This document shows, piece by piece, positions 1,020 through 59,369 of a stretch of DNA of 64,000 nt. The notes under the pieces are model-generated. The model was not told the DNA's origin and ran no database searches. It saw only the letters and a list, made by a program, of their open reading frames with translations. The position numbers and the translations under genes were made by a program. Positions within the stretch are counted from its first letter, which is position 1. Each line of letters opens with the position of its first letter. The DNA is from Leptasterias polaris (lineage: Eukaryota; Echinodermata; Asteroidea; Forcipulatida; Asteriidae). The stretch spans positions 3,949,501-4,013,500 of the forward strand of contig JAZGTN010000170.1 in the NCBI GenBank assembly GCA_037783415.1. Reading direction: 5' to 3'.

Positions 1020-1168
1020 CAAGGGCAGATTCTATTCAGTGCCCGTGCAATCCACTGGTCACTTGAGGCCGATGAAATGACTGTCAACACGAAGAATAAG
1101 AGTAGCATCCAAGAAGAATATGATTGGAAGTTCAAAATACGAGAGTTCCTGCAGAAAAACAATGCCAT
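1020..1168 (-). CDS. Gene L exon 1: signal peptide exon of a third receptor paralogue
   Basis: Reading leftwards from ATG at 1168, the exon encodes a hydrophobic leader (core WMLLLFFVLTVISSAS) followed by DQWIARALNRICPW, and stops at a consensus donor (TTG|gtaagt) in phase 2. Sequence, donor and phase match exon 1 of gene A (20481-20668) and gene B (37720-37919). It is shorter because a basic stretch between leader and DQWI is missing. The remaining exons would lie left of the window. It is therefore either the 5' end of a further tandem receptor gene or an orphan exon. The flanking DNA on both sides is also duplicated, which favours a whole-gene copy. Confidence 0.6.
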
Positions 1169-2221
1169 CTTGCTTCGATGTCAGACTGCATATAACGCCA
1201 TGTGTACTAACTATACGCAGCACAGTAGTAGACCAGAAATATCAGTAGGTTGCCTCAAAATTGTCCACGTTATTGTTCCAATAACTTTATGAACATCTTA
1301 TAAAATCTCACAAAGGCAATCACAAAGGGTCCTCTTTCTGAACAGTTGGTCTTTATCATGCACGGCATACCCAACCACATAGACTCTCTCAACAAAACGT
1401 ACAAATTGCTGTCCCTTGTCAAGTTGATATTATATGGACACACTTCATGGTTTTGTTCTAATAAAACCACCGGAAAAAGATGTCGCTGAAATTTCCTCTG
1501 TGCTGGTTGTTGCCATTTCCTCATAAACATGGGTAGGTCAACCAGTGGTTTGGAATAAATTAAACTGTGGTAGCGTCACCATTTTTGGTGCGTCAATTTA
1601 ACGTGTAAAGAATACATCACCATGAGGTCAGCCGTTTTTTGGGGGAAAACCCACAAAAATGTTTACTTTTTTGTTTGCATGTGTCATAAAGCTAGGTCAC
1701 TGTTGCTTCACTACTTTGAAACACAGTAGTGACGACACCAAATTGAAAGTAAAACTATTTATAGTAATTACCCTGAATTTATACAAATTGTTTTAGTCTT
1801 TTCATTTTGCATTTTCTTATATAAAGCACTTGACGTGGTTTAGAGTGGGGCGGGGATGGGATTGGAGGAAAATGCCCCACATACTCTGTATTTTCAGAAT
1901 TGTTTTCCCTCAAAAAAAGTTTTAAAATAGTTTGCTGAACTAATATCTACATGATACAAATAAAAAGGAAAAAATGCCATTAAGTGGCACTTTAGGGGTA
2001 AATTTATGACATTCTGGCTCAAAAATTGTTTTCCACATTTCCTAACATCAGTATTTCTCTCGTTTAAATATTAGTCTGAAAGCTTAATGAATATTAATTT
2101 CGTATTAGAAACCTTTTTTCTTCACATTATTTTCCTCTTAAATGATGTCATTTTGAGAAAACTGTTTCTGAAAACCTTTAAAACTAACCGCAACAGCTGA
2201 TTTCGGTTGTTATAGTCAAAC
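1169..2221. other. 5' flank of gene L, duplicated upstream of gene A
   Basis: No convincing gene. The stretch is closely similar to 20669-21660 upstream of gene A, so it carries the duplicated promoter region of two array members. A minus-strand reading frame (1270-1530) is open in both copies. Most differences between the copies change the amino acid and one is an indel, so I do not call it a gene. A TTATATG stretch just upstream of the ATG is a weak TATA candidate. Confidence 0.6.
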
Positions 2222-2225
2222 TTAA

Positions 2226-3291
2226 AGTCACCTGGAAAGAGATATAATAATTATTCTTTTAATATAAGAGTATATGTTTATTAACAATAAAACAATTTTG
2301 TGAGTAATTGTTTGTCAGTATTTATATGTAAAAAAATAGATAAGTTGTTTGGGGGTGATTCCGCTCATCCCTTTTTGTGACGTCAATCGAGGAAGACTTC
2401 GCCGCGACCCCCCATCGACCCCCCTCGAACTTGCCTGCATTTACGTTGTATATACACGTGCACTGTAGTGAGATTGTACGTTTCGTTTGGTTATCCAAAA
2501 AGGGGATTTTTCTTGCATTTTTCCGGCAATGCCGACAGGTGTATTGCTGCTGGATGCAGCAAAACGACTAAAGATGGGGTCAGCCAGCATTTTTTTCCTG
2601 CAGATCCCAAATATAGGCAGTTACGGGCATCGAAAGTCAGGCTTAATAACGAGGGCAAAGTGGTCCGGTCCGACGTCGTTTTCAGCGCTATGCAGCGCTA
2701 TGCAGCGAACACTTTGAGCCGTCGTGCTTGGATACCCGGGATTTTTTCGTTGGTAGTAGTGTGCAAGGGAAGTTGCAGTGAAGCTTAGATTACCAGCGAA
2801 ATGTTTCTGGTGTTCGGATCGACTTGAGCTGTATGCCACGACGCCGCGGCACGCCGATCCGATAAATAGTTTGGCAAAGTAGGAAAAACAATACCTCGTA
2901 TTATCCGTGTTCTCGTTATGACCATGCTTGTATCTTCCATTTTTAAGACATAGAAACGGGCATGGGTCAGTTCGGGACCAGTGAAAAACCTCGAATAAAC
3001 CGGCGTCTCGTATTAGTCGACTATACACTGTCCTAGGATTGCGTCCGAATACGAAAACGCATCATACTGATCAGGTACCCAGACGTAATGTACGGGGCCA
3101 GACTACACATTTTCTCCTGCCTCGATTGACGTCACGAACAGCGCCATGTAAAGGGGGGGCCTATTTTTTTAATTTGTAATTAAAATACAATTTTTTAACC
3201 TTAGTTAATTGTTTATTCACATTCCACTCATAAAAATGTATATAATAATGACAAAAGCTTTATTTTGACAAAATACCACTGCCAGGTGCCT
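2226..3291 (+). mobile_element. Kolobok-like DNA transposon with a THAP-domain fragment, copy 1
   Basis: The element is bounded by TTAA on both sides (2222-2225 and 3292-3295), with terminal inverted repeats of the form AGGCACCTGG (left copy one mismatch). It contains plus-strand frames that together spell a THAP zinc-finger: RCIAAGCSKT, HFFPADPKYR and a later LCSEHF-like segment. The frame is broken between these pieces. TTAA target sites plus a THAP domain are hallmarks of Kolobok-type transposons. Subterminal TGACGTCAATCGAGG and its complement form a second inverted pair. At about 1.07 kb it is far too short for a full transposase, so it is non-autonomous. A second copy lies at 52531-53507. 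Confidence 0.7.
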
Positions 3292-3410
3292 TTAAGGACA
3301 ATGTGTTTGCATGCTGACGAGTGAGAAAGGTTTTCACTTTTTTTTCCTCCTGATATCAAGTAATAAACACCAGGGAAACTGACTGGGTAAATTTGTTAAT
3401 GATTTTGGGG

Positions 3411-3611
3411 TTTGAACAAAGAAAAATTGACTGTAGCGGGATTTGAACCAACGACCTCCGGATTAGCGTGCCGGTGCTCTACCAACTGAGCTATCTAGCC
3501 CCGTGTTGGCGGTCTCCCTTTTTTGTCAATATTCCCTTAAGGGTGATGGTATACTTGGGTGTGATCCCTGTTTACACGGCAGTTTACGGTTGAATGGCTT
3601 CTGACTGGCAC

Positions 3612-3642
<31 letters not shown>

Positions 3643-3890
3643 ATCCAAGTGTGTAACAGCCTGCAATCGTGGACCCTCCTTTGTTCAACTCTTTGTGCTA
3701 GCAACCGTGCACCACAATGCTTTCCTTTGTGATAGCAACCGTGGACCTATTGTCCTCTTTTGTTACAGGTATTGAACAAATGGAGTACGCCAACATAGGG
3801 CTAGATAGCTCAGTTGGTAGAGCGCCAGCACGTTAATCCGGAGGTCGTTGGTTCAAATCCAGCTCCAGTCAATTTTTCTTTGTTCAAATC
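3411..3890. repeat. Inverted pair of tRNA-like sequences (SINE/foldback)
   Basis: A minus-strand tRNA-like unit (about 3430-3503) and a plus-strand unit (about 3799-3872) face each other. Both have an A box (GCTCAGTTGGTAGAGC) and a B box (GGTTCAAATCC). Both are followed by the same tail, GTCAATTTTTCTTTGTTCAA. The anticodon positions differ (GCT versus GTT) and position 33 is not T, so they are not believable working tRNA genes. The inner 290 bases hold a poly-C/AC microsatellite (3611-3642) and nothing coding. The arrangement is a foldback built of tRNA-derived SINE ends. Confidence 0.6.
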
Positions 3891-5536
3891 ATAAAATTAT
3901 TTCCCCTGACTTACACAACGGATTAGTCCACATTTTCACCGGTATGTTATTTCATGTCAACAGTTGATCACACAAAACATGAACACAGTCAGCGACTATT
4001 TCGTCCACTCTTCCGATCCTGTATAACACCTTTAACTGAACTCTGTACGTGAGTTCTTGAAATTCGAATAGTGATCCTGATGCTAACAACTGGTACACAG
4101 TTGTGCCAGGACATGAATAGTCAACCAAAACAAATCGGTTTCACGATGTTTTGTATTACCTTCCCTTTTCTATGAAATGCAAAGGGACACTGTGTAAGCC
4201 AAGGGCCCGTGCTCAATATTTTGGTTACAAATATCTGCTAATGAAGTCATTTTAAACATAATGACTCTAATGAGACTGAGCCGTATCCGAATTAGTCTAC
4301 GAATATGTATCAAAACAGCGGTTTTGTTTTAAACCAGATGTTTGATACAGATATCTCTTATCCGGTAATTCATGTTGCGATATCGACGACACGTTTTAAC
4401 AAAATGAACGTCGCCAATCAAGACTTGGTTGTTATTACCGTCTGGTTGGACCTGTCTAATGGAAACGGTTAACCATGTACACTCTAGGCCTGCATTTCTT
4501 ACTCTAGGCCTGTTGGTAACTTAGTAATCGTTTTAAACGTACCTTGGCATGTTCATGAGGACTCCTTCTGTACAATCAAGGCTTCACTGCTGGCAGAAGC
4601 TCCATCTCACCCTGCTTCTCCCTCTATTGTAGTTGTGGGCTTGCTGTTTTTGACACAGCGCCGCGGAAAGAGAATGGCTTGATAACTTCTCTTATGCTCA
4701 ACAATGAAGGGATGTCTTTTTGTCCTGTTTTCCTTTTAAACTTATTTCTGATTCAGGTTGTTATGGGATGGTTTTTCTGATATTTTAATGCTTCATAATC
4801 TTGACTAGTCTGAATCATGCAGCTTTTGTCTCTTATTTTAATGTTAAGTAACGATTAAACTTTAAAGGGAATATGCAAGTTGCTTGTATTATTTAAACAC
4901 CCGAGAAGCCCTAAGAAGACACTTGTTGATTTTTTGTTGGTTTTTTTGTTTTTTTGCATGAAGACAGAGAAGCCACAATGTTTGCTCAAGTCTTGTCTCT
5001 ATGGTGTAACCAATGAATTCATTGTGTGTTTATCACATGAAAGATGTATTTTGTAATTAAGCAATATTTACTAAGGTTCACTTGACTAAATAAGTTGGCT
5101 TTGCCAGTGAAAATGTGCATGACGTTTTATTTGTTTACTTTATAAAACAAGAAGAGAAGTGTGCAGCTGTGTACATTAAACGACCCTATATGGTGTTTTA
5201 GTAGTTTACATTGTGTTGACTATATCTAAGACGGTTTCTGGCATACTATCTTTATGACAACTTGTATTAATTTAACATGTAGAACTTCAGTTTGATGCTT
5301 CACCTGGAAAATTGAAATGAGATCCAAATCTGCCACGAACAACATGCCATACAAGGAAAGGCCCACTGGGATTCTTGACATCACAATAAAACCATACAAG
5401 TTGACAAAATCAACAAATGCTGCATGAGCTTCCTGTAGAAATTAGGGAATTGGGTTATATCTTCTCTTACCATTCGATGTCCCAAGATTCTGCCCTCTAC
5501 CTGTGAAGTACAACCACATCGTCAGAAAACCAGTAC
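3891..5536. other. Non-coding spacer
   Basis: AT-rich sequence with stops in all frames. I see no gene, tRNA or clear transposon ends. It has no obvious counterpart in the second spacer. Confidence 0.5.
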
Positions 5537-5704
5537 CACACACTCCATAGAAACCTTCAACTTCAATGGTCAGCCAGATACACACTCCATAGAAACCTTC
5601 AACTTCAATGGTCAGCCAGATACACACTCCATAGAAACCTTCAACTTCAATGGTCAGCCAGATACACACTCCATAGAAACCTTCAACTTCAGTGGTCAGC
5701 CAGA
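5537..5704. repeat. 42-bp tandem repeat, four copies
   Basis: Four head-to-tail copies of a 42-base unit beginning ACACACTCCATAGAAACC are nearly identical. Because 42 is a multiple of 3, a minus-strand frame stays open through it (14-residue repeat). There is no start context, splice site or neighbour to support coding. Confidence 0.85.
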
Positions 5705-8700
5705 TTCGGTGAAAGTATCTGAGAATAAAAATGTTTCTGTAATATTATAGTTATAAGATAAAGTAACTTTTATTTATCTATCTATTTATTTATTTGTTAA
5801 GGCTTTTTTTTCAAATAGTTGAGTGATGTCAAAAAATGGTGTTTAATGCATTGTGTGAAATCAAAATGGCCACCAAATCTGGCAGTCTTTGTGGATTTTG
5901 TGTTTTTAGCCCGTTTTTACATGCTAATTTCTACCTTTTCAAAACCAGAAATACTAAAGAACCCTCAGTTAAGCATCATCATTGCACCCTGAGCCCCCAA
6001 GGTGGCGAGAATACAAATTTCTAAGTGGAAATGTTTTTGTTTGACCCAGCGATTAAAATAAACAACTTTGCAAGGTTGTAGGCCTATAGCATTTTGAAAA
6101 GTATTGGGCACAGGGAGCCCCGACCTGCCCCAATCCACCCCATCCCAAAAGAGCAAGGTCCTGATAGTTTAAGTTATGTTTGCAAATTGATGGCCAAAAG
6201 TTTGACATGAAATGAGTCTCAGTATTTCTGCTATGTTCGAACCACGTTAATTTGAAAGTTAACGGATGTTTTTGAGAATCAAGAGCTTTGCAGTCGTTCT
6301 AAATTAATCTCCCAAAATTGTTGTTGCTATTTTCCTGTGATTTGTCCATGTGCCATTTTCTTTTTCTACGTATTTCTTTCATTCCATTATATCTGAAAAT
6401 GGGAGCCACCTTTTCATTCAAAATCGCAGAACTAGTTTAGGAATGATTTACGGTCAGATTATCTGCCTTTAAAGGCAAATACGAAACAGAAAGCACATCA
6501 TACAAAAGACGTGTATAATAATTTCAGGGATACACACTATAATTTTAATAACAAATAAAAACAGTATTTATGTTGCTCCTATGCCCACTCCATCCCACAC
6601 TTTCTTAGTGTGAATATGTTGGGCTTTGTTTAAGTTTTTTAAACATTTCTCTCGAGGAATTGATAGCTATAAAACGTTTAGTATTGACCTCTACACAAGA
6701 ACAATCTAGAGGACATTATTCTTTTCGCGGTAGGAACTCTAGTACTGGGCCAATAAGTCCCTAATCTGTAATTCACGATCCACCATCATCACTAACTACA
6801 ACCGGTAGAGGGCGCTATATCTATATGAACCGCTTTAAAGGTTGCACCCCAGTAAATACACTTCCCATAGAATACAATGTACTATGCTAAATATTTAAAA
6901 CTACACAACAAATACTTAGAAGTCTTACAAGTTTTTGCTGTGATTGGGAAATTATCCATTTTTGACTCCTGAACTTTTATCCTCTGCTCAATTTGATGAT
7001 GTCCCTACACCTCTCGGCAAATAGGACCATTTATTTCAGGGCATATTTCATCCAGAATACCTCAACAACCCCGGTCACAATTGGGTAAAATGTTATATTT
7101 TGAGAGCCTACAAAATTTAATGAGGACGACGATCTGTTTTCTCCCTGTTTGGTGGGGTGCACAATCTAAATAAGCTTCCAATGCAACTAATGCTAAAAGC
7201 CAAATTAATATTCAAAATACTTTTAAAGAATGTGTTTCTCAGCCTCTTGAAAACAAACCAATGTTTTCTGACAACTTAATATCACTTTTCCTTTAAATTG
7301 TTGACAGGTTAGCCGTTTGGCTTTTAGCTCATCCAAAATAAAAACAACCCTGGACGCCCAAACTGGCTAGCAAACTCCATAGGCCCTATATATTAATGGA
7401 AAAATTATCCTTTCCCTTTTAGCAAAGTAGGGCAATTTTTTTAGGGCTAGTTTACCCCCAAATGCTCCAGGTTGAAAGTCCACATCCCCATCAGGGGCAA
7501 AATTGGATCATTTTTCAACAGACCAGAAGAGTCTTGATATTCACATCTGTCCTTATTATTATTATTTTTTCGAAAACAAGAAATAGCGGAAATTTATTTA
7601 TAGGACCACCTTAAAAATAGTCAATTAACATCTAGGACTGTTCTAAGCCTGTAGCTCTGCACATTATGACGTCATATCATTGCAAATTATATTCCTGGTT
7701 AAACACCCCTGGGCCCAATTTCATTAACCTGTTTAACGCTGAATCCAACCACCACCACATTTACTGACTTTTCCCAATATTTAGCTTGGATTGTATTATA
7801 TAGAAAAGTGTTGTCATCAGGGTTCAACTGTTACCATGGCAACCTTTTGGTTGACCTTGTGTTAAATTTGTGATTATTTTTATTATATTAAAACAAAATT
7901 TCCACAAGAAAGAAGTAATGTTGTGTCACGTGCTAGTGTTACAATTTTACATGTATTGTGGAAATTCAAAATGGCTGCCACATTCGGTGGTCATTGTGGA
8001 TGATGTGTTTACAGTCCCTACTTAGGGTTCAAGCTATATCAACTTTTTAAACAATATTATTTATATACTAATTTACAACTTACTTTGCAGACCAAGAAAT
8101 ACTACAAAATCGTAACAAAGTCTCATCATTGCACCCAGGGCCCTCAAAGTTGACGGGAATGAGTGGAAAAACTTAAACGAAAAACCCTTTTCCCCTCCGA
8201 AATGGGATAGACTCATGATTAAAGCGCCCCTTACGATGACCCACAGAAATACAAATTCAATGTCATGTTATTGTTATGCCAAAATAAACAAGTTTGCAAA
8301 TTTGTATACCAGTGGACAAAAACAATACGGAAATTATGGAGAAAAATTAGCTTTTTTATAATTATTTTTGAATTTTTCTATTGAACTTGTTGAATTGAGC
8401 ACATTGTGGCAAGTTTCATAAACAATTTGAACTTTGGAAAATAGTCCAAAAGTCCAAAGAATTCCGGTCATGATACAGTATTACATGATACATGATACAT
8501 GATACATGATACTGATACATGTTTACAGTAATTCTGCTGCTTAGCATACTTACACTTTGCAAAGTAAAACATGAGTGGGGCACCAGTTGTAGCAATGTAA
8601 ACTTTGGTGAGTAACGATTGGTAACCTGTCAGCTAAAAGCAAGATTTGTCTTTCCTCAGCAAGGTTTTATGCTCACACGATTTATGAAATTTAGCCCAGA

Positions 8701-8824
8701 TATGATTAAATTCACGGAGCGAAACATTGAACTACTGATTACCTGTTGACGGTCTGATGAGTCTTACTCTGGGAGCCAATAAGCGATTTTGAGATGAGGT
8801 GGACACAATACTTTGACACTATTA
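5705..8824. other. Non-coding spacer, partly duplicated at 22880-24214
   Basis: No gene seen. From about 6640 onward the sequence aligns with 22880-24214 at high identity, including the stretch reading CCGGTAGAGGGCGCTATATC. This marks the tandem segmental duplication. A short GATACAT run lies near 8480-8520. Confidence 0.6.
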
Positions 8825-8830
8825 GTTTGG

Positions 8831-9545
8831 TATGGTGTTCCATATGTGCCACTCCTTCCGTCGCCTTTTCAATTTTGTCGGTCGCCTTTTCAATTTTGTC
8901 CGTCGCCTTTTCAATTTTGTCCGTCGCCTTTTCAATTTTGTCCGTCGCCTTTTCAATTTTTTCCGTCGCCTTTTCAATTTTGTCCGTCGCCTTTTCAATT
9001 TTGTCCGTCGACTTTTCAATTTTGTCCGTCCCCTTTTCAATTTTGTCCGTCGCCTTTTCATTTTTGTCCGTCGACTTTTCAATTTTGTCCGTCGCCTTTT
9101 CAATTTTGTCCGTCGACTTTTCAATTTTCTTCCGTCGCCTTTTCAATTTTTCAGGCGCATTTTTTTTCTGAAACGGCCACGTGACTGTCACATGATGACC
9201 ATGTGATGATTTGTTGGCAAAGAAAAATGATTGGATACCTCAACCATACTGTCTATGTACAGGCTTTGCTTAGTAAATCAAGAATGGAACTGAAAAAGGA
9301 TATTATCGTAGTTATCTGGTCTCGACTGTGGATGAAGCAACGTATACATTTTGGCAACTGCGGTATGCCTCACAAAGGTCGAATTTCCTTCGGAGTCATG
9401 TGATAGTCACCTGGTAGTCACGTGGACCCACGATGGAAAAATTGAAAAGGCGACGGACAAAATTGAAAAGGCGACGGACAAAATTGAAAAGGCGACGGAC
9501 AAAATTGAAAAGGCGGAAAGGAGTGGCACATTATGGAACACCATA
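8831..9545. mobile_element. Foldback transposon with 21-bp minisatellite arms
   Basis: Termini TATGGTGTTCCAT and its near-complement (ATGGAACACCATA) face each other. They are flanked by a perfect 6-bp direct repeat GTTTGG (8825-8830 and 9546-9551). The left arm holds about 13 copies of a 21-base unit (TCCGTCGCCTTTTCAATTTTG); the right arm holds about four copies in inverted orientation. The second spacer near 25670 reads straight through with one GTTTGG, so it preserves the empty site and the boundaries are firm. There is no transposase. Long open frames here are artefacts of the 21-base period. Confidence 0.85.
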
Positions 9546-9551
9546 GTTTGG

Positions 9552-12500
9552 GGTAAATTTGTCTGTACACATCAAAACCAAACAGTACACTCCACCATAT
9601 TTCAATTACAAAAAGGCTAATGACATTTAGAGTAGAGAATTTGATTTCTTTGTCCGAAAATGGACAAAAGTATAATGGCTGAAAATTAATGTATATTTTA
9701 TGACTCACATCACCCATCTTTTGTACACCACTGCAACAAACAAGCAATAGGGCTAGCAATTATATTATGCTCCACCCCAGAACCGCCATTACGTGCCCAA
9801 ACAGCCCGGACTCACTGTAATATTATTTACCCACGTGGACGCCGTTATTCTGACATGGTGGGCGGGGCTGAGTGGTGCAGCTGTTGTATGCTGCGGACAA
9901 GGTGCAGAACCCGACAGCCACTTTTTCGCCAATTCACAAAAACAAGTATCAACATTATTACAACAATATTATGTTGTAAGTCAGAAAACTGGCAGTCGGT
10001 TAAAAAAACCACTCTTACCAAATTAACATCCTATAAAGTAAGAATTTGCCTCAATATTACGTTACACTGGACTTGAACTGAAGTTTTCCTTAAAATAAGT
10101 GTGTGGGGGGGAGGGTTAAGAGAAGAGAAAGGAAGCAAGCGTCTTTTTGAGTTGAATTAATTTTCACTGAGCAGTCGCGTTTTCACTAAAAATTGACATT
10201 AGTAGTCTGTAGACAGTTATAAAAAATTATTTAATTATGACCAAGGGATTCGGAACAATAATTTGTGATGTGATCAAGCTAAATGAATCGTTTGCCGAAA
10301 ATATCAGTATGGAGAAACAAGCCAAAACAGGTCAACATGGGTGAAATTTTCAAAAATGTTTTTTTTAATATATCTTATTTATATTAGCAACTTCCTTCCT
10401 GATAAATAGCGTCAAAATTAGGGTTAAAATTAGCATTGACAGAAAATCTGCCAGTGTATTTTCAATAAACAACTCTACTTTAAACCCCCTTTTCTCAGTT
10501 TTATTCTCTCGCATCTCTTGGTGTTTCTACTTTCACAAGTTTTGAACCGAAGGTGGTATCAACATGGGGTTTTAACAGTATTAAAGCATAGATTATGCTC
10601 TTATCAAATGAATAAAAAAGTAAAAAAGACCTGGGTCGACAAACGACTCATTTTGCTTGATCGCATCACATTTGGCTCTTTACCTTCAAGGTTTGTGAAC
10701 TTCATTGCAGTAACACACATTCCGTTCCCTCTTGTTTGGAAACGCGGCAGCATTAGCCATCATCGGTGTGCCGGGTGTAGCAGCTGTCCTCCCGCTGCAC
10801 TGGAGTACCAGTACCGGGGGGCTGTGTGTTTTAGCTCCGATACCCCGGGCTGGATTAGTCTTCTGTGTTTATTGGGGCATATTTAATGTTTATCAGTATC
10901 GTAGTTGCCTACCAACTCAAAGTCATTCTGTTTAACGGTATGCAAGTGGAACTGGTGCCAATCTAAGGAGCTCGAACATCAACTGAAAGTTCAACAGAGA
11001 AACAAGCCCGATGTGGAGGTACTTTCTACAGATGTCTTCAAGAAAAAGCTTTGACTCTATCCTATAGTTTTCTTGTTCCTCGCAGCTCAACATCAATGTC
11101 GGCAATTTTGGTTCTCAACTCCGTGGCAAATTAATGAAGAAATTGAGCTGGTTACAGTTTGATATAGAATATTGATAGTTCGTTAGAAAGAGCGGGTGTT
11201 TTTTTTCCTCAGGCGAGCAAGTGTAGAGCTAGCTGTGTCCAGTCCCGCTATCCGTGCATAAAACTAGTATGAACAGCACGTGTTTCACCCGCTGCTGTTG
11301 TCGAAAACAAAGCGTCCCAAAAGGAAACGCTTATTTGCTTAACGATGATATTTGAATACAGTTTGGCAAAGTCTTGGGTCAAAGAATGCAGGGGATTAAT
11401 GTGAGATGCATGGAAACACCTGACAGGACACAAACAACGCTGTAGCTGTTTCTATACATGGGTACTTGCCAGTTAAATGTAAGATTTCCTTTTCTAAAAG
11501 AAAGCAAGGACGTGGTGCTTGCATTTTTCTGAGCAAAGTGTTTTTTTTTAGGTTACAAACCACAGGGGAAACTGACAGAGTATTTTGTATTGTAAACCGG
11601 GTGAGATACCTGGCTATACAGCGGTGTGTGGTCAGTTATGTGACTTCGAACTTTGTGGCGCCCCGAATAAAATATAATGACAACACCGGGAGACTGCCAA
11701 CATTAGTGTTATGCCGCAGATTCAAATCCACGTGTATTGTATTTATTTTTTCTCAAAAGAAATGAAAACTGCAACAAAAGTAACTCAAAGGAGGTTCAGT
11801 AAAAAATAAAAAAAATAAAAAAAAAATATCAAAGTTCTTTATAAACCTTTATGTTTCTCTAGAGATATTTTATATGGAATTCCTGTTGAAACTGGAAGGC
11901 AAGGTAGTTTAAAACACGATGACGGGTTTTGGTTTGTATCGGGAAATTGGTAGGTTCCATTCGAGTTCTGGTATTTATCTGAAAATACTCAAGCCGGCCA
12001 ATTCGACAGCCACTAGATAACTCGATCGTTTTGTGCTTTGTAATCAACTATTATTTTGTGAAAGTTTCATGGTGTCATTTTGTCTTGAAACTGTATTTTT
12101 AACTATTTGACTTGAAACCTGATGAAACGTTAAATGTCTACAAAACAAGTAATACATTTATAGAAATGCACAGCACGACTGCAACAAACAATTTTTTTTC
12201 AAAATCATTCATTTATTAAGCAAACGTTTGGTTACTCTTAGATGCTTACATTATTGTTCAGCAGAATATTTCACATAAAATTTATGTTACTCAATAAGTC
12301 ACGTTGTTTTGAATCTCCTCGGTTTTCTCTCCATTTTAATTTCCGAGTTCAGCTCATGATTTGTAAGAGGGCATCCGGGGACATGGACATCAATCAATGA
12401 TGAAGTCATCCCCACATTACAAATAGTTGTGTAAACTTTACCGCGCTCTTCCCTAAACTTAATTGCGCAAAAATACATTGAAAAGTTAAGAATTAAAGCT

Positions 12501-14796: not shown

Positions 14797-14802
14797 TTTA
14801 TT
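14797..14802 (-). terminator. Polyadenylation signal of gene A
   Basis: AATAAA on the minus strand, about 40 bases past the gene A stop codon. The same signal sits at the same distance in gene B (32063-32068). Confidence 0.6.
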
Positions 14803-14841
14803 GTTTTGCGAAATTACCTTTGTGGGTTTCAACAGAGAAAA

Positions 14842-24214: not shown

Positions 24215-24217
24215 TTA

Positions 24218-26990: not shown

Positions 26991-27158
26991 GTGGGTTCTT
27001 TTAGGTAAAAAACCACAGGGGAAACTGACTGGGTAGTTTGTATCGTAAACCGGGTGTGATCCTGGCTATACAGCGGTGTTAGGTCAGTTGTGCGACTTCG
27101 AAATTTGTGACGCCCGAATAAAATACATTGACATTACAGGGAGACAGTCAACATTAGG

Positions 27159-32062: not shown

Positions 32063-32068
32063 TTTATT
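32063..32068 (-). terminator. Polyadenylation signal of gene B
   Basis: AATAAA on the minus strand about 40 bases past the gene B tail stop, at the same place as in gene A. Confidence 0.55.
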
Positions 32069-32107
32069 GTTTTGCGAAATTACCTTTGTGGGGGTCAACA
32101 GCGAAAA

Positions 32108-41006: not shown

Positions 41007-41012
41007 TTTATT
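41007..41012 (-). terminator. Polyadenylation signal overlapping gene C stop codon
   Basis: The stop context reads ACT AAA TAA AGC, so AATAAA overlaps the TAA. A signal here implies a very short 3' UTR, unless another site further left is used. Confidence 0.4.
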
Positions 41013-50000: not shown

Positions 50001-53000
50001 TGTGACGTCAATGTCAGGGGTCAATATCAATTGTCTAAGCACCGATATTAGAAAAAGGAGCTGAGTTGTTGCTGCTGCTGCTGTTGTACACAGGAAAATA
50101 CAGAAAGCATTGCACTTAATAGTGTTTGCAAAGACCATCTAAAAATTGATAGTTTTAGGACTTATAAAGTGTGATCTTTTTCAATCTCTAACACTCATTC
50201 CGCATTTTTGGACGACGACGCTAACAGAAGGAAACCTGCTAAACAATATCTGCCGCATATTAAGCCATGGCTGAAGTATTCATATCTAATGTAGACTGTG
50301 ACGGTGTGTTGACGGGAACACCTAGCTCCCCGACGTCTGTGTTCAGGCCGTTTTGTAATAATTATTTACGTTTCGTTTAAGGTGTAGTGGTTTTTTTTGC
50401 TGTGTCCACATATTCCTTAAATGAATTCCTAAACTTCAGTAGCATGTCGAGCTAAAAAAAATCATGAACTACTAATATGAATTTAAACAAAATGATAAAA
50501 TAAACACATTACAAAAACAAAACAAAACCGTTATAACATAAAAAGAACACATGTATAACAAGTTATTTTAAGATGTTCTCCAATTAATCAGCACTGTTCA
50601 TAACTAAACTAAGTAAATGATGATAATTAAGTTTCAATATTGTGAGTTAAATCTGACACAATTCTAAAGTTAGTGATGTATAGCGCAAAACAAACAGTGT
50701 CTTTCAATCGGAATGAAGACGAAGTCATTTTTACCACAGAAAATAACTGTATTTAATGAAAAGGTTGTCTTCTTATATTTTGTTGTGCCCAGGATAGACT
50801 CATTCTTGTTAAAGGACAAACAGTATGTGTGACAAATTTAATCCTTTACCAAAACAAAATATAGTGGGGGAACACTAGTCGATTCGTCGACAAAGGGGTA
50901 CATGACCTAATGGTAAAATTTGTTGTAAGGTCCAATGTTGTAGGTATAGACATGTGGCAACTCTACCGATTGTGTACGTATGTATAAATCATGGAACAAT
51001 GTCCGTATGCGTTGTTCTGCCTAAAAGAATCATAATTTTTGAAATATCAATTTGGGTAAGAAGTATCGGGAGAAACAAAGACATAATATTAACAGAGATC
51101 GAGGAACCTATACTACGATGCCGTCGTTATAAACATGGAGCTACGGTAACGTGTTGGTTTTTCATGCGCGCCATCTGAATTTTGTGAGTTTATTTTCCAT
51201 GCTAATCGTAACGATGTGCAACTAAACAGTCTTGAGATGGACTATAGACAGTTAAGATTGTTTGGTAACTTGTAGAAGAAACATTCAAAATTGTTTAAAC
51301 TGTTGTACGGATTAAAAGGTTTGAGTACCGAACGATAAGGATGAATTTGTTGGTCCGAATGATCGTCCCTTAAAAAAAAGGGGGGAACACGTTGGGATGC
51401 AGTGATGGTCCATTTAGTGTGAGTGCATTTTTCTCTCAATAAGCTAAGAATTCAATAAATTTGTCTTTTACTTGCTAAAAGTAACAGCCAAATATTCGAT
51501 TCTAAAGAATCGAATTGACTGTACGCGTTATTAACACCAAATTATGGGGTAGCTTTTTTTATTCCACTGATAAATTGTTTTATTAAAAGACAAATAGGCC
51601 TATACAAAATTATCCTCGCATTATGTTGGTGGTGCAATTGCATGATGGTTTTACACACTAAGAATATAAATAACATAACACAAATTCAACGGTGTCATGC
51701 CGTCTTATCCTCGGCTCTCGCGACGCGGATTTTCATTAGCTAATTCACTCGGCCTAAACTCTTGTACTTCATGACTACTACCCGCTACATCAAACGATCC
51801 CATCGAAGGTACATTCGGTGCATTAGCCATTTTGGTATTTACTATTTATTAGTCCTATTACTTCACATTCAATGACTTTTGCCCCCTCGATTATATCAAC
51901 TTCTATTTACCCCCTTTATTTGTTCATCATTTTATTTTTTACTTGTTTATCTTGTCGGATCTAGATTTTAAGATCCCCCTTTGTTCTCCACATTCATTCA
52001 TCTCCTACTTATGACAGATCAAGATTTCTAGGTTCTTTTGTCCTGTACAGTAATCCCTCTCCAGTTGTCGGCTCAATTTTTCTAGGCCTCCTTTTTCCTC
52101 CTCATATCCCTTTGAATTGTCGGCTAAAGATTTTTTAGATTTTTGCATGCCTTTGTTCTCGGATTACCCACGTCATTTTAATCCCCCTAATCCCCTTTGT
52201 CTTATTGCTTCCCCATTGTTCTATTCCATCATGTCTATAGAAATGTCGGCTAAAGACCCTACTAACTAATTTTTTATTTTTGTAGTTGTGGTTTGTTTCA
52301 ATGCCATAACGACGTTCAAATCCACTGAAATAACAATAATACTTACCTCGATGGACAAAGAGTTTGACTTCCTTGCATGAATTCTTACAGGGCGTCGTCA
52401 TATCCTTCCCTCTCCCTGACAATTTGCTTGGGAGGAAACCACCACAAAATAAAAAGCAAACAATCAAAAAACTAAAATCTAACAAATTTACTGAAATTTG
52501 TTTTCCTTTATACAATAAAAAAAAACTGAAAGGCACCTGGCAGTGGTATTTTTTCAAAATAAAGCTTTTGTCATTAATATATACATTTTTATGAGTGGAA
52601 TGTGAATAAACAATTTGCCAAGGTTAAAAAATTGTATTTTTCTTTTAATTACAAATTAAAAAATAGGCCCCCTTTACATGGCACTGTTCGTGACGTCAAT
52701 CGAGGCAGGAGAAAATGTGTAGTCTGGCCCCGTACATTACGTCTGGGTACCTGATCAGTATGATGCGTTTTCGTATTCGGACGTCACCACCCAATGCAAT
52801 CGTAGGACAGTGTACAGTCGACTAATACGAGACGCCAGTTTATACGAGGTTTTTCACCGGTCCCGAACTGTCCCATGCGCGTTTCTATGTCTTAAAAACG
52901 GAAGATACGAGCATGGTCATAACGAGAACACGCGGATAATACGAGGTATTGTTTTTCCACCAGAAACATTTCGCTGGTAACCTAAGCTTCACTGCAACTT

Positions 53001-56000
53001 CCCTTGCACACTACTACCAACGAAAAAATCCCCGGGCTATCCAAGTGTTCGCTGCATAGCGCTGAAAACGACGTCGGACCGGACCACTTTGCCCTCGTTA
53101 GCCTAACTTTCGATGCCCGTAACTGCCTATATTTGGGATCTGCAGGAAAAAAATGCTGGCTGACCCCATCTTTAGTCGTTTTGCTGCATCCAGCAGCAAT
53201 TTTCGCTGGAAAAATGCAAGAAAAACCCCCCTTTTGGATAACCAAACGAAACGTACAATCTCACTACTTGCACGTGTACATGTATATACAACGTAAATGC
53301 AGGCAAGTTCGAGTGCGGCCGATGTTCAATCGAGGCGAAGTCTTCCTCGATTGACGTCACAAAAAGGGATGGGCGGAGTCGCCCCCAAACAACTTTATCT
53401 ATTTTTTTAACATATAAATACTGACAAACAATTACTCAAAAAATTGTTTTATTGTTAATATACATATACTCTTATATTAAAAAAAAAAAATCTATTTCCA
53501 GGTGCCTTGAAGGAAAATTGTTACCCGTTGAAGGAACGTTTAAAATCGTGTTCAAGGACACATCAAAAGGTTCGGGCAAATGTGAAATTTGTGATTAAGT
53601 TCTTCCCAAAAATTAACGCTGTACTCTCCTTTCATCTTTCTGAAAAAGAAATTTATGAAATTGTGCTCTAAATTACATTCTTATGGGCCAATTATGTTAA
53701 TGGTAGATTAAGTAGAACCTGCCCCATACCCTTCGATGTCTCCCTTTGGATGTTGGAGGGAGACCCCTAGTAAGGGAATCCTACGTAATTGTGTAGAGAC
53801 TGGAATAAAATCCCAATCCACATGCAAGACTCCGGACCGGGATTCGAACCGGGGTTCATGTAGACTTGATTTCAAGTCTGAGATCGCGGTTATTTCTCTG
53901 CATCAGCCACACAAAATTTCCCCCGCAGATTGGCTATCACGCGGTCTCAGCTCGCAATCTCAGACTTGACCCTTGTGTATACGGGATATTCCTTTATTCA
54001 CAACTGACATTTACATAACAACACTATGCCAGAGAGATGGCCAATCAGGAGGCCACAAAACTCCTGTTGGTTGCGTCTATTCCCAATAGGTTATAATCAC
54101 TTCAGCATTTTCTGTAAAATCGATTGAGTCATTGTTTTTTATTTTTATAGTGCTTTGTACGTATGCTATTTCTAATTTATACATAAAATAATACTAGATG
54201 TATTCTTAAAATATTGAAAAATAAACATAACAAATAACCTGATCCCTACAAGACGAAAAACTGTGTTCCCTTTATTTGAATGGAATCGTCTAATGATTTT
54301 CCCAACGTTTTTATTTATTTTGAATTTAAAAACTAGAATCACTTTGGGTTTTTTGTTTCCAAACTGTAAGTTGAATCACTGAGCAGAGGCAGATTAGTTA
54401 CATGTGATTCAATGTTGTATTTCTGTACTATATCCCGTGGTATAAACGGTCAAGTTTGAATGTGCATTTTATAGACGGCTTCTGAGATTCTGACCAATCA
54501 GAGTGTTCCGTCCACTTTTGGACTAATTCGCCACAGGGTGTGTACAAACCGAAAAACAATGTTCCCAAGTCTGTGATCGTAGGTTAAAGACGGAGGTTAA
54601 TCCACAAGAGGGCGCTATTTCAGGCAATTATGTATTGGCTATCAGGTAGACTAAAAACCACGAGCACAGACTTGGAACCAAGTCTTGGGTTCATGTACAG
54701 GCGATAGGCAGCAAAGAAACCACTGAGCCAATTGAAATCTTCAAAGAGGCGTACGAACAGATTAACAAATTGTCAATTTACCTGCTTGAATCTGTCTGCA
54801 CATCGACGGTGACCACCATGCAAGTAGGCCAAGTTGTGTTGCTACGTGGTTGGCCAAAACACACTTTTATGGTGAGTTGTGTACAGTTGTTGGAAATAGA
54901 AACATTGCGACAACAAACGTTGTTGCCATTAACAACTCTTGCTTTACCTGAATATGGAATCAAAATGATTTACATCAAGATTTGAAACTTAGATTTGCCT
55001 ATCAAACCAGCAACGGTAGAAGATTAATGCGTTGCTTTACTTTCTTACTTGCTGATTAAATCTCATTACTACTGACTGATCAGTAGAGGACATCATAAAA
55101 GTTTATCACTCGACTCGAGGTGTCGTGGCCGAGCAGTCTAGTTTATTGGACCCAAGCTCTGGTGTTGTTAGCAGTATGGATTCGATGCCCGGTCGCGCTA
55201 TTTTTTTCCAGCTCAGTTGTGGCAGAATCAACAGGGGACGCTGTTTACGGGGTTTTCGTCATGAAAAAAGATATGAATAATGCAGCTGTCGGCATCGCTA
55301 GCTAGCTAGCTCTGGGATCACAAGGCGCTGAGGACAGGCACTTTTCTTGTTGCGTGTAACGGTGGCTGGAGGATCAGGTGTATAATCATGGTCTAAGTGA
55401 ATAATTGACCTATGCATGATACACCAAAATGTTTGTTTGTGGGTGTGTTGGGGGTGTTTGTTTGTTTGTTATTTGTTTTGTACATACAACCGATATATTT
55501 TTGCATAAATGCCACAATACAAAGCGTTCATAACGTTAGGTTTCAGGTCTGTCGATGTTTTCTTTTTCCTTCATAGAACTTTGGTTGCACTCCTTTTCAA
55601 GCATGGCACGAGACAGTCATTGATTTTCTGCTATGGTAATTACCAATCAAAACTGCCACTTGGTGTCATTTTTGTACCGAGTCTGTTCAGCTCACCGTAA
55701 TGCAAACCGTGTGGCCTTCTTTTAAACAGTGTTGTCATGGAAGGTTCTGGTCTAACTAGTTATCTAAAAAGTATGGTGGCCCTGAAGGGACATCGCATAT
55801 CGCATACGTGTGCGCACACGTATGCAATGTCGTGAAACAAATCGCGAATGTGTGCGCACACGTATGCAATGTCGTGAAACAATTCGCGAATGTGTGCGCA
55901 CACGTATGCAATGTCGTGAAACAATTCGCGAATAATTATGTGCGCACACGTATGCAATGTCGTGAAACAATTCGCGAATGTGTGCGCACACGGTATGCAA

Positions 56001-58521
56001 TGTCGTGAAACAAATCGCGAATGTGTGCGCACACGAGTGCGAATATATTTGCGATGTCGTGAACGTTTATTGCATACCAAGTTGCATACCTTTGGGATGA
56101 TGTCATAGTTGCAGACAATTTGTTAGTGACCTAGGGAGTACGTGGCGCTACAGTCAGGCTCCTGTAAGCATGGCTATACAATAATGTGTACCCAGGAACT
56201 TGGCACCAGGCCAAGTTTCGCCAACATGTACTACAGCATATATAAGCTATCTACCTACAGCCTACTAATAAGCTTTTGACACAGTGAGTTATGATTTGTT
56301 AATTAATAAATTGTATTTTTATGGTATAAGGGGTGTTTCACTTTGTTGGTTTTCTAGTTACCTTGAGAAGCGTAGACAGTATGTAGTTATTGATGGAGTT
56401 GAATCTATTCCCCAGGTAATTAACTGTGGAGTTCCACAAGGATCAAATCTTGGACCTTTATTATTCTTGATTTATATTAATGATTTGCCTCTTTGTTGCA
56501 GGTTGCTAAAACCTGTGTTATTTGCAGATGATACTACTCTTTCTGCCTCTGGTGGAGATTTATTAACCTTAGCCACTGATGTAAATACAGATTTATTGAT
56601 TATTCAAGATTGGTTTCGGGCCAACAGGTTAATGGTTCATCCTGATAAAACTTATTATATTTGTTATTCATCTAAGCAAAAGGAATTATTTTTGCCTAAT
56701 GTTACGTTATGTTTAGAAAATTGTATTCTCAAAAAGGTTTCTTGTACTAGGTTCTTGGGATTGGAAACGGACAAAAATATGCTTTGGAAGGAACAAATTT
56801 CGTCAGTATGTAATAAGATTTCCAAAGCTAACTACATCCTTAATAGAACAAAGAACTTGTTGAGGATTAAAGACAGCTTGTTGATTTATAATTCATTGGT
56901 TAATTCTTATCTAAATTATGGTGTTTTGGCCTGGGGTGGCATGTATAAGGTATATCCTTCTTTATTTGGCAGACTTGTTACACTACAAAAGAAATGTATA
57001 AGGAATGCCTGTCATGCTAAATACAATGCGCATACCACTCCACTTTGTAATAAATTTAGAATTCTTAAGTTTGGTGATGTACTTAATGTTCACATTGTTA
57101 CCCATTATTACGATTACTTTCACAAATCACTTCCTGAGAATTTAAGCCATCAGTCTTTTTCCCACTAAACCAGGACTTGTACCATTATTCTACGAGACAA
57201 AGTAATTGTATTCATTGTAGTAGTAAATTTAGACTGGACGTTGCTTCAGGTAATTATCGTAACATTTTGCCTAAAGTTGTTAATGGTCTTCCTGATCACC
57301 TTAGACTTCTTCTGGTTAATTCATCCAAAAAGCTCTTTGTCAAACATCTCAAGAAATTCTATTTAAATAAGTACAATGTTTTTTCTTGTTCAAATTTCAA
57401 CTGCTACTCCTGCCTACACACAGCAAGACAATAGTTACCTTTTTCTATTCTATTTTTTGCATGTTTATTTTAGTACGTTTAATATGCTCACATTATTATT
57501 TTTATGTTTTGAACTTCCTACATTTATAACTCAACCAGGAAACTCATTGTTTGTATTTTCCAAAATTGTTTAATTTAACTGTAGTCCCAGGTGCTCCACA
57601 ACAGAAGGCCAGTCCTTCTCTGGATGTCACCCCCATTCATACTGTACTGTATTGTTTTCAAAAAAAAATATTTAAAAACATATTTGCATTGATCGTTGAT
57701 CATTATTTATCTGTATGTATGAAAGTATGAATGGAAAAAATAAAAATAAAAAACAAACAAACAAACAAACTTGTGCTATTACAATCAAGGTCGAAGAGTA
57801 AGCACGCGCGAGGGTATTTTACGGTCAAACACGCCCGTTTTATGTTAATAGCCCACGTTCGTCCTGGGAAAAAAAGAAATACGCCACCTGCCTCGCTTGC
57901 CTCACAACAATGACTACCGATACCGCTGCAATGACTACCGCTAATCTCACTGTAGGCAAGAAACCCCCCCCCCCCCAGATCATTATACATTTTATTCAAA
58001 GGTATGCAACTTGGTATGCAATAAACATTCACGACATCGCAAATATATTCGCAGACGTGTGCGCACATTATTCGCGAATTGTTTCACGACATTGCATACC
58101 GTGTGCGCACACATTCGCGAATTGTTTCACGACATTGCATACGTGTGCGCACATAATTATTCGCGAATTGTTTCACGACATTGCATACGTGTGCGCACAC
58201 ATTCGCGAATTGTTTCACGACATTGCATACGTGTGCGCATATATTCGCGAATTGTTTCACGACATTGCATACGTATGCGCACACGTTTGCGATCATGCGA
58301 TGTCCCTTCAGGGCCACCATAAAAAAGTGTTCCGATTGCACCGAAGGCTCGTACTTTTAGGATCTAAAAATTGCCGACTAGGCCTACCTTGTGAGCATTC
58401 ACAACATGCTCATTAGTGCTATAAATTTCACTAGTCAGTGTTGTAGGTCTCCCCACCGGTCTCGGTCTCCCCCTCCCCCTCGGACCGACCTCTCCGTCTC
58501 CCCCTCGGTTTCCCCCTCCCC

Positions 58522-58559
<38 letters not shown>

Positions 58560-59369
58560 ATCTAGTGGACTCCCAGGTCTCGACTACAATACTGACACTT
58601 AGTGCCCTAGGAGCAAGGTACTTAACCATGATTGCTTCGTAAAAACTACCAGCCATCGGCCCTATAATGGATGATACCCATGCCTACATTATCACGGACT
58701 GTGAAGGGGGTACACCTGTTTCAGCCCCAGCAGTAGGTGGCAACGTGCCCCTGGTGGCAGTTTATTTGGGTCGAAAGCCTAAATATAAGTGTTAGTCTTC
58801 ACCTTGAAGTGGCCATCCGGTGATTTTTATAGGCGGTCTCTCTTACAACAATGGCGCATTATATCATAGAGAAAGATAGCGTGTGCATAACAAAGTAGGT
58901 AGAAAATACAAATGTTCGCAGATTGAAACATAAATTAATCGTATAAAGATGGTCTTGGTGGAAAACTCCCCTTGAAATATTTTGTGCTTAAAATTCTGTA
59001 GTTTTTGACGAGTGATTTTAAATAACAAGTTTTGATCTCGCGGGTCCAAAATCTGAAGTTTGAAAACAGTGAAAACAAAACTGACATCTCGTGACATTCG
59101 ATTGAGCTAACCTTAACGTAAGTGTTATCTCTCATGTAGATTTGGTCACACAAAGTGCAAATACTGCTCTTTGACAATCTTACAAAATGTTGTCCGCTTG
59201 CTTTATATAGGTGACGTAACTTCACACAATTTCAGGGTCACTTTATTGTTTATCACTTTTTATCTTGTGGATTTCAAGGCACTTTGGGAAATCAATAGAT
59301 AAAGATTCTTACCATTGTAGCCGCAGAAGACTTTTTTTAAATTCATCAACGAACACGTGACTACAGAAT
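41008..59369 (-). CDS. Gene C: diverged receptor of the same family, long repeat tail (5' end not found)
   Basis: Exons read leftwards: 59369-59313, then either 52415-52347 plus 49552-49495 or 54947-54782, then 44574-44510, 43456-43318, 42648-42557, 42347-41008. All have AG/GT borders. The phases close along both routes (1-1-1-2-1-2-1 or 1-1-2-1-2-1). The ectodomain is cysteine-rich (CSLMNLKKVFCGYN; PCKNSCKEVKLFV; DCTYNCSCQ). The stalk is Thr-rich (DTVTTTTD), the membrane span FIGIGIGFLSLITIAILVVL, then RGQRRER. The next exon starts VNWDDPGYMGV, matching VELDEDGYLAV of gene A at the same phase-2 junction, which supports common descent. The tail of about 480 residues has TYEDEI, GYVEY, YEEI (Src-family SH2-type) and five 43-residue repeats carrying YVDF and YPDP. 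No signal-peptide exon was found to the right, so the 5' end is missing or beyond the window. Confidence 0.72.
41326..41961 (-). repeat. 129-bp coding repeat, five units, gene C tail
   Basis: Five in-frame units of 43 residues begin SRSTGYVDFDYPDPVF and include DPCSVGKTT. The first unit is diverged (YVDV, HPDT); the fourth lacks nine bases (GND). Units 2-5 are nearly identical in DNA, which implies recent expansion or gene conversion. Confidence 0.92.
43549..43870. repeat. Tandem repeat of about 65 bp in gene C intron
   Basis: Four to five imperfect copies contain AAGGTATGGCATGGGTAAAG and CCTTAGCTAAAGGTTGGTTT. Intronic and non-coding. Confidence 0.8.
44575..46396. other. Gene C intron sequence
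   Basis: AT-rich, stops in all frames; no further cysteine-rich exon or transposon ends seen. Confidence 0.5.
46626..48959. mobile_element. 2334-bp Mutator-like non-autonomous element, 9-bp TSD
   Basis: The ends TAGACTTGTGGACAAGTCGT and ACGACTTGTCAACAAGTCTA are inverted repeats, and a perfect 9-bp duplication CTTCCTGGC (46617-46625 and 48960-48968) flanks them. Inner inverted blocks (GTGAAACCCGC and complement, CGCGAGAG runs) extend the arms to about 185 bases. Arms that long plus a 9-bp target suggest a MULE. The interior has no transposase; it holds a degenerate minisatellite (47740-48260) and GGGGCGACTTTG repeats (48305-48420). The end motif resembles TAGTCTTGG of the small MITEs in gene A. 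Confidence 0.8.
47740..48260. repeat. Degenerate minisatellite of about 22-24 bp
   Basis: Many diverged units follow the pattern GTTCCCT-CGAAATACGATTTT with alternating lengths. On the minus strand they give an 8-residue pattern with KGTKAY-like repeats, but with stops and no gene context. Confidence 0.7.
49825..49965 (-). other. Cysteine-rich segment, possible decayed ectodomain exon
   Basis: The minus-strand frame contains STCKRVNASLPKKPC, then PPCIHGHPKCCNQDYCDDDV. The ending CC-x2-D-x-C-D resembles the C-terminal signature of Ly6/three-finger domains, and CDDDxxNG echoes the CDDDNG at the end of the neighbouring real exon (49495-49552). No donor of the required phase follows, so it is probably a broken or chance exon. 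Confidence 0.3.
49966..52346. other. Gene C intron sequence
   Basis: No gene, clear transposon ends or RNA gene seen. Confidence 0.5.
52531..53507 (-). mobile_element. Kolobok-like transposon with THAP fragment, copy 2
   Basis: The ends AGGCACCTGG and CCAGGTGCCT are flanked by TGAA on both sides (52527-52530 and 53508-53511), a TTAA-like target. The minus-strand frame reads IAAGCSKTTKDGVSQHFFPA, then KWSGPTSFSALCSEH, i.e. the C2CH and AVPTIF-region landmarks of a THAP domain. Deletions relative to copy 1 are seen near CSE. It lies in a gene C intron and is non-autonomous. Confidence 0.72.
53700..53990. repeat. SINE-like repeat with B box
   Basis: Contains GGGATTCGAACCGGGGTTC (complement of a tRNA B box) and lies in a gene C intron. 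It resembles part of the repeat at 62390-62690. Not a tRNA gene. Confidence 0.45.
54782..54947 (-). CDS. Gene C alternative ectodomain exon
   Basis: A 166-base exon has acceptor TTCCATATTCAG and donor CAG|gtaaat, phase 1 in and 2 out. It encodes NVCCRNVSISNNC, LTIKVCFGQ and TTWPTCMVVTVDV, with several N-x-S/T glycosylation sites. Its cysteine and hydrophobic pattern parallels exons 52347-52415 plus 49495-49552 taken together, and those also run phase 1 to 2. The two modules cannot be joined in series without breaking frame, so they look mutually exclusive. Which is used, or whether both are, cannot be seen from the DNA. Confidence 0.55.
55120..55200 (+). repeat. tRNA-Leu-like SINE head
   Basis: TGTCGTGGCCGAGCAGTCTA and GGATTCGATGCCCGG match the A and B boxes of the Leu SINE at 18544. 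Its body is not evident. Confidence 0.6.
55772..58321. mobile_element. 2550-bp foldback transposon with 42-bp minisatellite arms
   Basis: The ends TATGGTGGCCCTGAAGGGAC and its complement are flanked by a perfect 6-bp duplication AAAAAG (55766-55771 and 58322-58327). Each arm of about 320 bases has the terminal block, five to six copies of a 42-base unit (GTGTGCGCACACGTATGCAA ... ATTCGCGAAT) and an inner TTGCATACCAAGTTGCATAC block. The interior carries a LINE fragment. It is in a gene C intron. Confidence 0.88.
56275..57775 (+). mobile_element. 5'-truncated LINE with reverse transcriptase, inside the foldback
   Basis: A 294-residue frame (56284-57168) starts within the reverse transcriptase: YGIRG, then GVPQGSNLGPLLFLIYIND, FADDTTL, later NRLMVHPDKT and FLGL. 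A second frame (57177-57434) continues the C-terminal region after a stop. This is the pattern of an L2/CR1/jockey-like LINE. The 3' end is an A-rich microsatellite (57735-57772). No endonuclease is present. It is dead or nearly so. Confidence 0.8.
58440..58562. repeat. CCTCGG/GGTCTC microsatellite
   Basis: Pyrimidine-rich CCCTCGGTCTCC units end in a perfect (GGTCTC)n run at 58520-58558. Confidence 0.85.
58594..58840 (+). repeat. Leu-SINE body, 5' truncated
   Basis: Shares AGCAAGGTACTTAACCATGA, GGACTGTGAAGGGGGTA and GGCAACGTGCCCCTGGTG with the SINE at 18544-18908. It lacks the tRNA head. Confidence 0.7.

Follow-up and report, generated by a model that had tools for sequence, protein, structure and literature searches.

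Three tandem genes for putative tyrosine-tailed membrane receptors in the sea star Leptasterias polaris, the middle one built as a mosaic

Gene models and organization of the locus

We analysed a 64,000-nucleotide stretch of the genome of the sea star Leptasterias polaris (assembly GCA_037783415.1, contig JAZGTN010000170.1, here contig 170, positions 3949501-4013500), called the window below. Its minus strand carries a tandem of genes for candidate single-pass membrane receptors, L, A and B, whose units are spaced by ~17–19.5 kb, and the 3' part of a further gene, C. A first-pass annotation had read the window as a tandem of membrane receptors with a fixed exon-phase plan, and the gene models of A, B and L support this. 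Beyond that annotation, the combination of ectodomain and tail in one chimeric gene and the differing tyrosine tails are the more informative features.

Gene A consists of six exons on the minus strand, all with AG/GT sites and in the phase series 2-1-2-1-2. It is complete as previously proposed, the length of 449 amino acids (aa) given for it including the stop; the protein has 448 aa. Exon 1 (20481–20665) encodes a signal peptide, the basic stretch KQRRQRQR and cysteine 1, exon 2 (19529–19611) the ectodomain cysteines 2–4, exon 3 (18261–18504) cysteines 5–9 and exon 4 (16841–16905) cysteine 10 and the start of a stalk. Exon 5 (15911–16172) holds the Thr/Ser-rich stalk, a transmembrane (TM) helix with a mean Kyte-Doolittle (KD) value of 2.74 over 19 residues and an RRR stop-transfer signal, and exon 6 (14842–15349) a tyrosine-rich cytoplasmic tail. 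A basic KQRR stretch follows the signal peptide in A and B and is lacking in L, where the alignment has an 18-residue gap; it may be a propeptide site.

Gene B follows the exon plan of A, with GT-AG sites and phases 2-1-2-1-2, and its tail exon is split by an insertion. The description of B as complete except for one insertion is borne out. The exons lie on the minus strand at 37720–37919, 37097–37182, 36000–36234 (cysteines 5–9), 35356–35402 and 34468–34735 (stalk and TM helix), followed by the part of exon 6 before the insertion at 33474–33511 (VELDEDGYLAVS). The insertion of ~888 bp (32586–33473, bounds by arithmetic, no strand assigned) is hAT-like, judged by its ends, and is flanked by an 8-bp target duplication, TGTGAGCC, at 33474–33481 and 32578–32585. 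Translation continued across its border runs into a stop that ends at 33418, so that the frame of B as assembled covers DEDGYLAVS and 18 further residues and closes inside the insert. The rest of the tail open reading frame past the insertion (32108–32578, minus strand) has four YEEP and one YEDT.

Of gene L, only exon 1 lies in the window (1020–1168, minus strand), with a signal peptide, the first ectodomain cysteine and a phase 2 donor. That this is the first exon of a gene was confirmed when further exons were located just left of the window. Exons 2, 3 and 5 were found within 40 kb, on the same strand and in the expected order; exons 4, 6 and 7 were placed by splice-site reading. The resulting model has seven exons, 620 aa and the phases 2-1-2-1-2-1. 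Counted from the window start, exons 2 to 7 lie on the minus strand at -2448 to -2366, -3418 to -3184, -4168 to -4050, -5396 to -5030 (TM), -6434 to -6376 and -8671 to -7821.

The intergenic DNA is repeated as well. In total, 9600 of the first 20450 bases of the window are collinear, in blocks, with 20451–38600, and the intergenic part of the unit (1169–14841, no strand assigned) is block-collinear with ~20666–32107. The upstream region common to L and A is 95.4% identical over 571 aligned bases, and A and B have common blocks over ~5–8 kb downstream of the genes.

To count copies, we searched the genome (630 Mb in 334 contigs); these counts are lower bounds, as diverged copies could be missed. 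With A exon 3 as query, L, A and B were all three of the matches scored (E ≤ 10), and with the TM exon they were the three places among five matches scored (E ≤ 1). The last exon of L found itself only (one of two matches scored, E ≤ 1) and neither A nor B. Thus, L, A and B form a trio, with three ectodomain copies detected genome-wide. The local expansion postulated earlier holds in this small sense, by exon 3 and the TM exon, and not as a large expansion.

Mosaic structure of gene A

Comparing the three genes along their length shows that gene A is, at the level of its sequence, a mosaic whose 5' half is of the L type and whose 3' half is of the B type. Exons 1–3 of A are L-like; its stalk, TM helix and tail are B-like; the switch falls at 17576–17594. 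In 250-bp steps, A and L share 94–99% identity, where aligned, from 19950 to 18701, and 87–91% from 18450 to 17701. The match is lost at 17594, below which only 110 bp around the TM helix can still be aligned (69%). The comparison with B gives the opposite picture. A and B do not align from 19450 to 18701, and a forced global alignment of introns 1 and 2 yields 53% and 43% identity; from 17576 downwards they are 77–94% identical, with exons 4–6, introns 4–5 and the 3' flank differing by 0.04–0.14 (Jukes-Cantor, JC).

The junction itself can be read in intron 3 of A (17576–17638, minus strand), where a relic of an L-type exon 4 (~17594–17638) is joined to B-type sequence. The L-like part stops at a point within L exon 4 (-4085), the B-like part starts at 17576 with what corresponds to the last bases of B exon 3 (36007), and a short filler lies between the halves. 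A and the repeated intergenic unit would have been produced together if an L-like gene, broken inside exon 4, had recombined ectopically once with a B-like gene, broken at the end of exon 3. A single exchange of this kind predicts the order L, chimera, B with repeated intergenic DNA, as observed. Furthermore, intron 3 is in phase 2 in L, A and B, and therefore the recombinant gene would remain in frame.

Coding constraint and selection

The ten cysteines of the A ectodomain all align with those of B (10/10) and are also kept in L, hence in all three genes. The first-pass claim of ten shared A/B cysteines and the phase series 2-1-2-1-2 thus agrees with exon models and alignment. The length differences between A and B in the five comparable exon pairs are 15, 3, 9, 18 and 6, all multiples of three. 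Over exons 1–3 the two genes differ at 118 positions, without a single stop and without loss of any of the nine cysteines there. When 118 differences were placed neutrally on these exons in 5000 simulation runs, no stop arose in 0.7% and no cysteine was lost in 0.3%; both together occurred in 0/5000. Nor is there a stop or frameshift in A, in L or in B upstream of the insertion. The coding reading is sound even without RNA, because of the splice plan, the exon length differences in threes and the outcome of the neutral simulation.

For L and A, exons 2 and 3 together give 0.110 nonsynonymous (dN) and 0.044 synonymous (dS) differences per site, from 25 nonsynonymous differences at 245 sites and 2.8 synonymous ones at 67. 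Nonsynonymous differences exceed those in intron 2 (p = 0.002), and exon 2 exceeds its near intron (p = 0.0001). Two of five tests were significant; a sixth, of nonsynonymous sites versus pooled introns, gave p = 0.023. In the stalk of A and B, dN is 0.177 and dS 0.056, a ratio that rests on two synonymous changes. Positive selection as proven by dN/dS was rejected, as the direct tests of nonsynonymous versus synonymous differences between L and A are not significant (p = 0.23 for exons 2+3 and 0.70 for exons 1–3). The signal in the L-A exons is suggestive at most.

Comparison of the ectodomain with known folds

The earlier impression of an unrecognised ectodomain is upheld by Pfam, where it has no match at E ≤ 10, and by the PDB sequence search, which gave no credible match: PsbA alone appeared, at E 1.2 and later at 0.22 with three rows. 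Elsewhere in A and L there were sub-cutoff Pfam matches only, and no Ig, sushi or C-type lectin-like domain above the cut-off was found in either protein. A structure prediction, which had been proposed for the ten-cysteine region, was run for exon 3 only (80 aa, with one row each for A and B); its mean predicted local distance difference test (pLDDT) value of 47 was too poor for use, and when this model was compared with the PDB by Foldseek, nothing reached E ≤ 0.001 (best 0.65). Among prokaryote and viral contigs no relative of the A/B ectodomain was confirmed (17 and 16 candidate stretches). Titles and abstract openings from a mostly open-access literature gave no description recognisable as the L-A-B family.

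The thyroglobulin type-1 (Tg1) domain has a CWCV core and the motif CVDxxG. It was rejected as an identity of the ectodomain: there is no Pfam match, CACI stands in place of CWCV, and a custom Tg1 profile scores within shuffled sequences. The score of A was equalled by 8.4% of 1000 shuffles of A with fixed cysteines and by 5.1% of full shuffles, and that of B was equalled or exceeded by 30% and 19% of these two sets, respectively.

Tyrosine motifs of the cytoplasmic tails

The tail of A contains DEDGYLAV (15316–15339, minus strand), which resembles a hemITAM, half of an immunoreceptor tyrosine-based activation motif (ITAM), followed by the ITAM-spaced YEDL-x7-YAEL (15205–15249, minus strand), one YQQL and five YEEP. 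The YEEP motifs lie in 16-aa units of 48-bp tandem repeats (14919–15219, minus strand). The pattern [DE]3GYxx[LIVM] was reached by 3/2000 shuffles of this tail and five YEEP by 0/2000, the repeats not being independent of each other. In B the motifs of A are split over both sides of the insertion, with four YEEP versus the five of A. Of the hemITAM feature (acidic triplet, G and YxxL) A and B have DEDGY, with YxxV for YxxL.

The tail of L is different. It matches the ITAM pattern [DE]xxYxx[IL]-x6-12-Yxx[IL], which A does not, with DNQYNVL-x10-YSML (15/5000 shuffles as good). It also has YNTL, and GFSAV at the position of the juxtamembrane tyrosine (alignment by eye). Its two YxxP are at chance level, half of 5000 shuffles being as good.

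Neighbouring genes and other elements

Three exons of gene C were modelled on the minus strand: a TM exon (43318–43456, mean KD 2.76 over 19 residues), a first cytoplasmic exon (42557–42648, GVNWDDPGYMGV) and a last exon (41008–42347), whose 445-residue tail includes five 129-bp repeats (YVDFDYPDP) and YEEI. Five YxxP were reached by 42/2000 shuffles, the one YEEI by 2/2000. The first cytoplasmic exon shares the juxtamembrane pattern GV..D..GY..V (7/2000 shuffles as good over 75 residues), as had been noticed; of the shared last phases, those of the TM exon (1 to 2) stand, and C has one additional exon after it, as in L. Candidate ectodomain exons of C reached a Smith-Waterman (SW) score of 21 against A, equalled by 93% of 2000 shuffles, and the TM exons of C and A have nothing in common beyond chance (16% of shuffles). 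As a genome query, the last exon of C retrieved, among eight matches scored, its own position and an overlapping stretch in antisense, and no other copy. Membership of C in the L-A-B family is not shown: the modelled exons contain neither the ten-cysteine ectodomain nor the phase plan. The piece at 59313–59377 is an exon candidate without support.

About 21 kb beyond L lies the end of a further gene, K, on the minus strand (window -29241 to ~-30145; L013:1-759 and the end of L012), with a 300-aa tail. It has nine YxxL/I motifs and two YDEP motifs, neither count being attained by any shuffle (0/3000), and ends in EEIYNVLILE. No ITAM was found in it by either pattern; its four matches to the pattern of ITIMs (immunoreceptor tyrosine-based inhibition motifs) were reached by 1.7% of 3000 shuffles. 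Similarity of the K tail to the other tails is within shuffles, and K is grouped with them by position and composition only. Common descent of the tails is not claimed: in 1000 shuffles 5.4% were as good as L-A and 92% as good as L-C (part of C), and in 500 shuffles the fractions were 66% for L-C (full), 24% for K-C, 15% for K-L and 77% for K-A. K, L, A, B and C make at least five tyrosine-tailed genes or gene ends in the same orientation within ~74 kb. Possible last two exons of another gene (PLYSEVVGHDEKL...ENVQKPKG end) were seen by eye at L013:7690-8000 on the minus strand.

The window also holds repeats. A dispersed repeat has inverted copies at 2221–3296 and 52526–53512 (86–91%); 38 further places in the genome, among 40 matches scored for the query 1020–3000, cover ~2220–3000, and the copy at 52526–53512 matches THAP below the cut-off (E 0.003). 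A tRNA-like short repeat lies in B intron 5 (34076–34217), where ARAGORN predicts a tRNA-Leu at 34115–34205, and again, inverted and 84.5% identical, in A intron 2 (18530–18669). tRNA genes or relics occur at 3799–3871 (plus strand; tRNA-Asn by ARAGORN and Rfam) and 3428–3500 (minus strand; Rfam only). Reverse transcriptase fragments on the plus strand were found at 56272–57165 (RVT_1, E 3.9e-15) and 63725–64000 (RVT_1, E 3.8e-9). Inverted arms of 224 bp (55799–56022/58070–58293), 97% complementary and composed of 42-bp tandem units, surround the retroelement fragment.

Possible function and alternative explanations

We propose that L, A and B are paired immune-type receptors that combine one recognition module with alternative Src/Syk/Crk-type tails, A having arisen by ectopic exchange; on the sequence evidence we regard the chances of this being right as evenly balanced. 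The further-reaching version, invertebrate paired receptors with an ectodomain fold outside the described families, whose module was recombined, by exchange between compatible exon phases, with ITAM, hemITAM/YEEP and truncated tails, is a tentative suggestion. The proteins would be type I single-pass receptors, in which a shared recognition module (exons 1–3 and the exon 4 cysteine) is followed by a stalk rich in Thr/Ser and by tyrosine tails that can be interchanged. A ligand, non-self or self/non-self, would cluster the receptor, and Src-family kinases would then phosphorylate the tail. L may signal to Syk via its ITAM. A may do so more weakly, via DEDGYLAV and YEDL-x7-YAEL, and may recruit Crk/Nck-type adaptors via the YEEP array. 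In its assembled form, B retains DEDGYLAV without the YEEP array, and would thus be a decoy or a weak signaller. All tail functions suggested here for A, B, L and C are inferred from their motifs.

Several observations weigh against this proposal. The L-like half of A is itself patchy, since its similarity to L drops to 87–88% in 18200–17701 and is absent in 20200–19951. A single event is not proved, because the noncoding divergences of L-A (0.01–0.16) and of A-B in the shared part (0.08–0.21) overlap but are unequal; conversion at a later time or additional events may have contributed. In the tails, DEDGYLAV has V for L, YEDL-x7-YAEL of A has no acidic residue at -3 and its spacing alone occurs in 134/2000 shuffles, and the ITIM pattern [SIVLT]xYxx[IVL] is absent from A and found once in L (LHYEAV), at chance. 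B is broken. As to selection, the direct test for L-A exons 2+3 is the non-significant one given above, and exon 3 shows no excess over the compared part of intron 3 (p = 1.0). Between A and B, the differences in exons 1–3 fall on the three codon positions as 34, 46 and 38, and this missing third-position excess also fits relaxed constraint.

The last point, together with the hAT-like element in the tail of B and the recombinant nature of A, could mean a decaying duplicate array, in which B would be a pseudogene and A would have arisen recently by accident, without a function of its own. This is very improbable in our view, given that A, L and pre-insertion B are without stop or frameshift, that the A-B exons differ in threes and that the ten cysteines are kept. 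The proteins could also be adhesion or developmental scaffold receptors without an immune role. p130Cas is a cytosolic scaffold with a YxxP substrate region that recruits Crk/Nck, and the YEEP array of A, with tandem YxxP docking sites of the same kind, might link to the cytoskeleton in this way, although it belongs to a receptor tail made of 48-bp repeats. YxxP are above chance in A (five are reached by 1/2000 shuffles), and the YxxP and YEEI of C, with the frequencies given above, point the same way. Nevertheless, L has a canonical ITAM and its YxxP only at chance, and swapped tails on recognition halves that are nearly identical are what paired immune receptors show (PMC2832619), so that we consider a scaffold role unlikely.

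In Botryllus and Hydractinia, clustered receptors with tyrosine tails are candidates for allorecognition (PMC12065747), and the nonsynonymous differences in L-A exons 2+3 are not below the synonymous ones. Gamete-recognition or allorecognition receptors under diversifying selection are nevertheless quite improbable in view of the direct test and of only three copies found. A separate matter is whether the novelty of the ectodomain is only apparent, the fold being a diverged known small disulfide domain such as Tg1, TIL, LU or similar. The spacing C-x25-C-x14-C-x8-CxC-x31-C of A, with CINSEG placed like CVDxxG, recalls the family features of Tg1. The Pfam result and the Tg1 profile scores of A and B speak against it; CC or CN as in LU domains does not occur, and TIL was judged by spacing alone. 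We think such a relationship unlikely.

Relation to known receptor systems

The closest systems in their working, as far as the sources cover them, are the tail-exchanged paired receptors of mammals (PMC2832619) and the fuhc receptors of Botryllus (PMC12065747). In the CEA family, paired receptors were made by exchange of tail-coding regions, near-identical recognition exons being recombined with different tyrosine tails (PMC2832619). The CEACAM ectodomains are Ig-like, whereas L and A have neither an Ig nor another Pfam domain above cut-off. In Botryllus schlosseri, the clustered type I receptors FcoR and fester/uncle fester carry ITIM, hemITAM or YxxI/L/V tails, and one gene half is shared while the other is not: uncle fester arose with fester exons 6–11 and without the fester 5' end (PMC12065747). 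Their ectodomains, however, consist of Ig and sushi domains and there are 53 FcoR loci, compared with the ten-cysteine ectodomain and the three copies found here. Dectin-1 and CLEC-2 resemble A and B in the tri-acidic DEDG before a single-tyrosine motif, the hemITAM in Dectin-1 (PMC11624271). They are C-type lectins, CLEC-2 being type II, whereas A and B are type I, with no lectin domain found and V for L in the motif.

L, A and B would work like paired receptors, and membership in the Ig, lectin or Tg1 families was not found; they would thus represent a known principle outside those families. If this is true, the paired-receptor principle of mammalian CEACAM, KIR and Siglec was invented independently, outside the Ig and lectin folds, and in A the recombination junction is still readable. 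The fixed exon phases would gain a role, as an exchange in intron 3 always keeps the chimera in frame. One recognition could then be coupled to different signalling outputs by swapped tails, and Syk-type signalling via such tails would become testable as a general solution in animals without adaptive immunity.

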